45,366 nucleotides of DNA from an uncultured Bacteroidota bacterium (GTDB lineage Bacteria > Bacteroidota > Bacteroidia > JABEUT01). Below are positions 7,099 to 27,708 of the stretch, piece after piece; position 1 is the first letter of the stretch, and each line of letters begins with the position of its first letter. Location: positions 1-45,366 of the forward strand of contig CAIPDV010000002.1 of NCBI GenBank assembly GCA_903863935.1. Direction: 5' to 3'. The position numbers and the translations under genes were made by a program. Below the pieces are notes generated by a model that did not search any database, was not told the origin of the DNA, and worked only from the letters and a program-made list of their open reading frames with translations.

Positions 7099-7140
7099 AC
7101 TATAGAAAAGGCGGGAAAATTTTCCCGCCTTTTCTATAGT
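7099..7140. terminator. 42-bp perfect palindrome, bidirectional terminator
   Basis: Positions 7099-7119 are the exact reverse complement of 7120-7140. The GC-rich core GGCGGG/CCCGCC is flanked by A and T runs. It sits between the plus-strand RRM gene and the minus-strand surface protein gene that ends at 7179, and would end transcription from both sides. The RRM gene already has its own terminator, so this mainly serves the minus-strand gene. Confidence 0.75.
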
Positions 7141-11607: not shown

Positions 11608-11640
11608 CCGGTATAGGTATATTTTGTTGTAATTCAAACA

Positions 11641-11673
11641 AAAAAGGAGGACAGAAATGTCCTCCTTTTTTTT
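11641..11673. terminator. Rho-independent terminator (GAAA-loop family)
   Basis: A-run, GGAGGACA, GAAA loop, TGTCCTCC, T-run: a perfect 13-bp stem when the A and T runs are included, so able to act in both directions. It lies 62 bp after the stop of the 11736-14141 gene. The same hairpin design recurs at 14289 and 19244. Confidence 0.85.
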
Positions 11674-14182: not shown

Positions 14183-14288
14183 CATTTTTTATCTTCAGGG
14201 ATAACGAGAGTTCGAAGCCATTATTGTAATCCGCTAACGAATAGCTTCCTGAGATTTCGGATGATGTTGGAATTAAATGAAATAAAAT

Positions 14289-14319
14289 AAAAAGGAGCAC
14301 ATTTCTGTACTCCTTTTTT
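14289..14319. terminator. Rho-independent terminator (GAAA-loop family, inverted)
   Basis: GGAG-C-ACATTTCTGT-A-CTCC between A and T runs. The core is the reverse complement of the ACAGAAATGT core of the hairpins at 11641 and 19244, so it is the same element in the other orientation. It lies 53 bp downstream of the stop of the minus-strand gene at 14372. Confidence 0.8.
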
Positions 14320-14371
14320 ATTTACCCCAAACCCCTAAAGGGGCTTTGAATAATTGCCGGTCGGGCTCCGA

Positions 14372-19144: not shown

Positions 19145-19243
19145 CTAGCAATTTAGTTCATTAAATTTCGAATTGAAGCAACTTTTTAACAGTGTATGGT
19201 TAATTACTCTTAAATAAAAGAAAATAATTATTTGTAAAAAAAT

Positions 19244-19275
19244 AAAAAAGGAGAACAGAAATGTTCTCCTTTTTG
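19244..19275. terminator. Rho-independent terminator (GAAA-loop family), orphan
   Basis: A-run, GGAGAACA, GAAA loop, TGTTCTCC, T-run: a perfect 13-bp stem. No intact minus-strand gene precedes it; the closest candidate is the sorting-domain remnant at 19708-19749. The AT-rich stretch between 19276 and 19700 holds nothing else that I can recognise. Confidence 0.8.
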
Positions 19276-26287: not shown

Positions 26288-27025
26288 ATGAGGACATTGT
26301 TTTGTGCATCTGCTTTAGTCCTGATGTCTTTATTTAATAGTCTTTCCGGGCAGTCACTTGGCTCCAAGACCCACGTCTTTAATGATGTGTATGATACGGT
26401 TTACGGTATTCAGTTTTATGATAAGTACAACACTATAATGGATGGTGATTCGGTGCGGAAATATTTTGACGGACACCTCTGCAACGGCTTGATTGAAGAC
26501 CATTATCCGGATTCGAAAATTCTGCATAAAGGTTTTTATACCGACGGGAAATTGACCCAGTACACCAACTATTACCCCAATGGGCAAGTGGAAAGAGTTT
26601 ATAAACCTACATCTGACCGCAAAACTGAACTGAAAAAATATTATCCGAATAAAGTGCTCAAATCAGAGGTGCAATACTTTGAAGGAAACTCAACTTTATG
26701 GCAGGATTATTTTGATACAGGTCAGCTTTCTTACGTGGAAGAATATGATAAGAAACACACCCGTGTTTTAAAGCGTTGTTCGTATTACAAAGATGGAAAG
26801 CCTCATTCCATTTTTATTCCTCTTAAAACGGATGGAGCAAAAATAGTTTATAGCCTGAAAGAATATTATGCGAATGGGCAATTGCAGGAAGAATCAGAAG
26901 CTTTGTATAACCCCGATTCGTATGATTTTTTGAAAGACGGAGATGTTAAAGACTATGATGAAAAGGGTAATTTAACCGGGGAGTATGAGTATGTGGGAGG
27001 AAAATTAAACCAGACCATAAAATGA
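26288..27025 (+). CDS. Secreted MORN_2-repeat protein
   Basis: 245 residues from the ATG at 26288; a longer frame would overlap trxB by 41 bp and lacks the signal peptide that 26288 gives ('MRTLFCASALVLMSLFNSLSG'). The body consists of repeats of the YwqK/MORN_2 type ('GLIEDHYPDSKILHKGFYTDGKL', 'YPNGQVERVY', 'YYANGQLQEE'). Such proteins are common in Bacteroidota and no function is established. Its TGA overlaps the ATG of the next gene (ATGA), so translation is coupled. Confidence 0.8.
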   Translation: MRTLFCASALVLMSLFNSLSGQSLGSKTHVFNDVYDTVYGIQFYDKYNTIMDGDSVRKYFDGHLCNGLIEDHYPDSKILHKGFYTDGKLTQYTNYYPNGQVERVYKPTSDRKTELKKYYPNKVLKSEVQYFEGNSTLWQDYFDTGQLSYVEEYDKKHTRVLKRCSYYKDGKPHSIFIPLKTDGAKIVYSLKEYYANGQLQEESEALYNPDSYDFLKDGDVKDYDEKGNLTGEYEYVGGKLNQTIK

Positions 27026-27708
27026 AGGCTAAAAAACTATCACAGGAATTTTATTTGCGAAAAGATGTATTGAAAATTACCGAAGAACTGATAGGTAAAT
27101 TTCTCGTTACAAATTTTAATAATGAATTAACATCCGGAATGATTGTAGAGGCTGAAGCTTATAATGGCCCTGTTGACAAAGCTTCCCATGCCTATAATAA
27201 CAGGCGCACAAAGCGTAATGAAGTGATGTACGCAACTGGGGGAGTGGCTTATGTTTATCTCTGTTATGGAATCCATCACTTATTTAATGTTGTAACAAAT
27301 CAAGAGGGCATACCCCATGCAATCCTTATCAGGGCTGTTATTCCGACCGATGGAGTTCAGGTGATTTTGAAAAGAAGGAAGCCCCGCAATTCTGCGGGAT
27401 CCCGTAGAATTGCGGGACAAAATAAAATAGCAAAGAAAATTTCTGATGGTCCCGGAACGCTTTCTACAGCTCTTGGAATAACAACGGTCCATTCCGGTGT
27501 TCCGTTATCTGAAGACTTGATTTGGATAGAAGACCGTGGAATAAAATTTAAAAAGAAAGATATTCTTACCAGCGCCAGGATTGGCATTGATTATGCCGGA
27601 GAAGACGCTAAACTGCCGTATCGGTTTAGATTAAAAGAAGAAATTATTTCAGATTTATTGCGAGCTATTTCCTGCACTGATTTTTCTATTTTTTATCCAC
27701 CGAAATAA
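27022..27708 (+). CDS. DNA-3-methyladenine glycosylase (AAG/MPG family)
   Basis: 228 residues. Family signatures: 'GMIVEAEAYNGPVDKASHA' with the catalytic-site Glu in 'VEAEAY', 'YVYLCYGIHHLFNVV' and 'DGPGTLSTALGI'. It excises alkylated purines in base-excision repair. Residues 121-132 (PRNSAGSRRIAG) are encoded by a near-perfect palindrome and lie between the 'LKRRK' helix and the 'DGPG' loop, where relatives have a shorter linker; the frame is kept, so the enzyme may still work. The start overlaps the upstream stop by 4 bases. The 3' end overlaps a convergent gene by 23 bp. Confidence 0.93.
   Translation: MKAKKLSQEFYLRKDVLKITEELIGKFLVTNFNNELTSGMIVEAEAYNGPVDKASHAYNNRRTKRNEVMYATGGVAYVYLCYGIHHLFNVVTNQEGIPHAILIRAVIPTDGVQVILKRRKPRNSAGSRRIAGQNKIAKKISDGPGTLSTALGITTVHSGVPLSEDLIWIEDRGIKFKKKDILTSARIGIDYAGEDAKLPYRFRLKEEIISDLLRAISCTDFSIFYPPK
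27383..27416. repeat. 34-bp palindromic insertion inside the DNA glycosylase gene
   Basis: CCCGCAATTCTGCGGGA at 27383-27399 is mirrored by TCCCGTAGAATTGCGGG at 27400-27416 with only one mismatched pair. It encodes residues 121-132 of the glycosylase in frame. The structure resembles mobile palindromic coding elements of the kind known in Rickettsia (RPE), but I found no second copy in this window. Confidence 0.7.

Follow-up and report, generated by a model that had tools for sequence, protein, structure and literature searches.

Small palindromes that have become part of a protein are best known from Rickettsia and from REP-rich Proteobacteria. The Rickettsia palindromic elements (RPEs) are about 150 bp long and fall into ten families; R. 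conorii has 44 copies, of which almost half lie within open reading frames (PMC10969869). REPs and REP dimers have also been documented inside genes, repair genes included, and among the phyla with CGTC repeats, in which the CGTC tag precedes a stem starting with AT, are the Bacteroidetes (extracts of PMC3733652). A literature search that left most subscription papers outside its coverage returned no report of the hairpin described here.

The window, a stretch of 45,366 nucleotides from a draft Bacteroidota genome (3.76 Mb in 126 contigs), carries a gene for a 3-methyladenine DNA glycosylase with an in-frame palindrome inside it (Table 1). A preliminary description of the window had reported a near-perfect 34-bp palindrome encoding 12 residues of this enzyme, and this is borne out: the 34-nt core (27383–27416) forms 16 of 17 pairs, and the insert counted in whole codons (36 nt, residues 121–132 of the intact frame) forms 16 of 18 pairs with no spacer, its two 18-nt halves being inverted copies of each other save for two positions. 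The window contains two 36-nt palindromes that have no spacer and no more than two mismatches (27382–27417 and 7102–7137), whereas 100 simulated windows matched for dinucleotide frequencies contain none. The segment 27376–27423 folds with −16.5 kcal/mol as single-strand DNA (z −6.8) and with −28.5 kcal/mol as RNA (z −7.4); as a single strand the insert forms one long hairpin, and each half alone also forms a hairpin, CCCGCA-ATTC-TGCGGG.

The palindrome at 7102–7137 is perfect, with the core GGCGGGAAAATTTTCCCGCC inside a longer stem, and is probably a terminator. Terminator-like hairpins of the AAAAAGGAG-ACAGAAATGT-CTCCTTTTT type occur three times in the window (11636–11673, 14286–14323 and 19240–19274), and the type recurs on another contig (L130, 5313–5343).

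The 228-residue glycosylase matches Pfam PF02245 (methylpurine-DNA glycosylase, MPG/AAG type; E 4.3e-56) and has relatives in the PDB (3qi5, 1f4r and 1bnk; E about 1e-24); the human enzyme can be aligned across the insert loop, with unrelated residues there. An AlphaFold2 model of the protein has a mean pLDDT of 89.4 and a pTM of 0.87, with residues 123–132 at a pLDDT below 50; it predicts that the fold is retained and that the inserted residues make up a flexible loop. Of the interpretation in the preliminary description, an in-frame palindromic insert, confined to this genome and placed in a loop of varying length in the family, is supported. Tolerance of the insert is explained by its length, 36 being divisible by three, by a reading frame free of stops and by a site in a flexible loop of variable length; the enzyme carrying it therefore probably still works.

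Present in 35 of 60 genomes searched, the enzyme was aligned at 30 loci, those of the window and of 29 relatives, eight of them from the same genus; a second collection added 50 loci, giving 79 relatives in all and 80 rows with the window. Whether the insert is unique had been raised in the preliminary description, and it is absent from all 79 relatives: none has residues 121–132 at that point, and none has hairpin DNA at the glycosylase locus. Between the conserved ends R118 and G143 the window enzyme has 26 residues, against 13–14 in 59 of the 80 rows, and the same-genus rows have 14 in six of eight, so that they differ from the window by exactly 12 residues, and 13 in the other two. Two distant relatives also reach 26 residues and four reach about 20–22, all with unrelated residues; since such longer stretches occur, the loop accepts extra length. 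Empty insert sites are seen in other species, eight of them of the same genus. No target duplication is readable at the insert, whose boundary can be drawn on either side of one C. Close relatives hold no seed for the palindrome in their sequence at this site, so the letters of the insert came from elsewhere.

The insert consists of a hairpin unit, CCCGCAAT-N(1–2)-CTGCGGG, present twice in head-to-head arrangement, with the central AT common to both copies. Both units have the same orientation, with G-C or G-T on the outside and A-T at the centre, and at several single copies the hairpin is likewise preceded by G-Y and followed by A-T. The 16-nt hairpin of the left unit is identical to one elsewhere in the same genome (G000:C102:3088–3103). 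The joined double unit has no match in the genome-contig collection, which may exclude the genome of the window. A looser pattern, TRCGGG-N(0–10)-CCCGYA, occurs at control level in 11 genomes of the genus (4 versus 4 in the genome of the window), and among its matches that in the window is the only one made of these units. The arrangement suggests either that two units landed head to head or that a single unit landed and was then duplicated in inverted orientation.

Searching the genome of the window with the left half, at up to two mismatches, gave 10 places, and the reversed pattern gave none; further copies, for which the preliminary description had proposed to look, thus exist as half-units. 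Hairpins of the form CCCGCA-N(2–12)-TGCGGG number 13 in this genome, against 0 for the reversed control, and the loop is always 4 or 5. Ten of them also match the stricter consensus CCCGCAAT-N(1–2)-CTGCGGG (reversed 0). In a 635,535-base sample of the genome, chosen partly so as to include all 13 hairpins, the CCCGCA arm accounts for these 13, against at most two for each of 29 other letter orders. Only one of the ten consensus copies is in the window; the other nine are elsewhere in the genome, each as a single hairpin unit and none as the 34-nt double palindrome.

Table 1. Location of the glycosylase gene, its insert and the hairpin units (numbers are window positions; contigs are those of the same genome).
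Feature	Position	Strand	Remarks
3-Methyladenine DNA glycosylase gene (MPG/AAG type)	27022..27708	+	Intact ORF, 228 aa
In-frame palindromic insert, 36 nt	27382..27417	+	Codons 121–132; protein PRNSAGSRRIAG; DNA CCCCGCAATTCTGCGGGATCCCGTAGAATTGCGGGA
Left unit GC-CCCGCAATTCTGCGGG-AT	27381..27400	+	Exact match to genome consensus
Right unit GT-CCCGCAATTCTACGGG-AT	27399..27418	-	One arm mismatch, G to A
Single units between genes	Contigs C46, C102, C112, C121		
Single unit in tRNA-like remnant beside tRNA-Pro gene	Contig C62		
Single unit in RNase P RNA, helix P12	Contig C30		
Single units in open frames	Contigs C71, C81, C106		

Two of the units in open frames, C81:13734 in a T9SS-sorted protein and C106:5716 in a signal peptide, lie in frame; both were considered as insertions and rejected. 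In alignments against genus members of their families, lengths at the unit differ by only a few residues and without a clean pattern, and one relative that lacks the hairpin is equally long. The third (C71:17216) sits in what we take to be a DUF1800-like gene. Judged by these alignments, the window copy is the only demonstrated in-gene insertion of the hairpin unit.

In the RNase P RNA (L013, 1501–1517) the unit lies exactly at helix P12. There the nearest relative has a helix of the same length and different sequence, so that this copy, too, was discarded as an insertion and is a replacement or a convergence; a hairpin occupies the position in all eight sequences from the genus. Several RNase P helices of the genus end in AGCAAT (GCAA tetraloop). 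In two tRNA-like remnants (L012, 1501–1516; L016, 1501–1517), which are 3′ halves comprising the T arm and the acceptor, the hairpin stands in place of the anticodon arm. That the 18–20-nt unit replaced helices in structural RNAs (P12 of RNase P and the two tRNA-like remnants) is only hinted at.

Across the class, the consensus is found in 27 of 295 genomes (reversed control 0). Among 29 loci examined in other genomes, 13 are terminator-like, with an extended stem and a T run, and 16 are not; because of these 13, recurrence of the hairpin need not mean mobility. The likeness to the intrinsic terminators of Bacteroidia lies in the same stem and loop at those 13 loci. The genome of the window differs in that none of its ten copies has a GC stem extension with a T run after it, and in that the copy in the window lies within a gene. 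A terminator origin thus holds for many of the class-wide matches and does not hold for the copies in this genome. One hairpin sequence is, to judge by its distribution, favoured widely, and in the genome of the window it is present as free units. One class member (G119) has 16 copies, mostly CCCGCAATTTCTGCGGG, of which three are about 60 nt apart on its contig C25 and two are inverted, 186 nt apart, on its contig C5.

Other repeats were noted in the genome of the window. A dispersed intergenic element of about 90 nt (L168–L186), ending GGGCTTTCCRC...ATCCCTCACGC, has a core with 19 matches, against 6 for the reversed control, and at least two of its copies (L168 and L182) contain a nested TCCCGAATTTATTTCGGGA hairpin. 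In one genus member (L166) the hairpin unit adjoins GGGCTTTCCRC-type sequence. A larger GGGCTTTCCRC element with nested TCCCG...CGGGA hairpins was rejected as the source of the window insert, which has none of its remainder. Secreted repeat proteins, too, form very large paralogous families in this genome, with 155 matches for P0002 and 120 for P0003.

By analogy, the insert would work like an intragenic REP dimer: it shares with intragenic REPs and REP dimers the short hairpin (stem 6–9, loop 4–5) in frame in a gene, with REP dimers the head-to-head pair able to fold as one large hairpin, and with intragenic dimers a host of the kind that includes DNA-repair genes (extracts of PMC3733652). 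The likeness would be one of kind, not of membership. Compared with REPs as these extracts present them, the unit has no CGTC or GTAG tag, CCA tail or flanked RAYT gene, its copies number about ten and pairs are infrequent (PMC3733652), with one head-to-head pair, the arrangement predominant in CGTC REPs, among the ten copies. Assignment to the CGTC REPs looked promising at two loci (L014 and L018) and failed across all copies. None in this genome has CGTC, TGTC or CCTC before a stem starting with AT; AGTC is found at C81:13734, which is also the only copy with a stem of length 8 and AT, the stem being otherwise 6–7 (8–9 bp in CGTC REPs).

The comparison with Rickettsia drawn in the preliminary description is fair in the same limited way. 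Like RPEs, this is palindromic DNA in frame in a protein gene, adding residues where they are tolerated, and it differs in its length of 36 nt and in that insertion into a gene is proven once, against about 150 bp and several genes (extracts of PMC10969869); the match with the Rickettsia elements would likewise be in kind and does not extend to membership. Absent from orthologues, in frame and made of letters repeated in the genome, as a protein-coding palindromic insertion in general is, the insert is a case of a known but rarely documented kind.

The reading that we favour, at a probability of about 0.6, is that of a small family of REP-like palindromes, from which a single head-to-head pair settled, in frame, in a tolerant loop of the glycosylase. 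The REP-like unit, G-Y-CCCGCAAT-N(1–2)-CTGCGGG-A-T, is dispersed at about ten places in the genome, and in the species lineage two units would have become head-to-head between the K120 and Q133 codons of the MPG gene. We infer the mobility of the units, and with it the origin of those in the insert from the dispersed family by DNA copying; a single-strand hairpin route as in REP/RAYT and a replicative inverted duplication of one inserted unit would both give the arrangement. Ten is a low copy number for a mobile family, and the double unit has no second copy, both of which count against this reading. Of the mobile element proposed in the preliminary description, what stands is the existence of related hairpins elsewhere in the genome; these are single units only, and neither a target duplication nor a transposase tied to the insert was found. 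Unlikely, in our estimate, is a minimal Bacteroidota palindromic parasite, an 18–20-nt hairpin unit without a transposase of its own that would be copied into sites where an additional or substituted hairpin does no harm (protein loops, as in MPG, the P12 helix in the RNA of RNase P, tRNA-like remnants in their arms, and intergenic gaps) and would form pairs by inverted duplication in situ.

Possible, if doubtful, is a local replication accident without any mobile family, in which a stable class-wide GC hairpin (terminator-type stem, favoured loop) would have been captured once and made into a pair by template switching, the other hairpins of the genome being unrelated stable hairpins converged on one sequence. 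The uniqueness of the double unit fits such an accident, as do the use of the hairpin as a terminator stem at 13 of 29 loci elsewhere and the RNase P copy, standing where each of the eight sequences from the genus has a hairpin, but the finding of a 15-letter consensus ten times in 3.76 Mb, and never in reversed form, argues against it, as do the nine copies outside the window, none terminator-like, and the seedless site of the relatives. Seven RAYT-like Y1 transposase genes (L024–L030) are present in the genome, the C102:3088 copy is about 2.3 kb from one of them, and the inverted two-hairpin arrangement is that of REP dimers (PMC3733652), all of which would suit a true REPIN/REP produced by a RAYT transposase that is still present or has been lost. 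None of the seven is flanked by the CCCGCAAT-N(1–2)-CTGCGGG hairpin, the gene on contig C22 being readable for only 150 bp on one side; those with readable flanks have their own, different hairpins, for example CCACGACCTAAAGGTCGTGG or ACCCCTTCGGGGT, with at least four copies of CCACGACCTAAAGGTCGTGG around the locus L030. Given these hairpins of other sequence a RAYT origin was rejected and is, with terminal GTAG absent from the unit and CGTC present only by chance in a few copies, improbable. It is very improbable that the insert is an assembly or amplification artefact: short palindromes can arise as inverted chimeras, and the insert is known from one assembled draft genome, yet its 36 nt keep the frame without a stop, and its halves differ at two positions, unlike a fresh inverted copy of one strand.

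The locus provides a clean Bacteroidota case: eight species of the genus have the site empty, and the genome still shows the donor unit. It is a tractable example of non-coding repeats adding residues to an enzyme, and the unit, small enough to be followed between strains, could serve to separate the action of a transposase from replication slippage.
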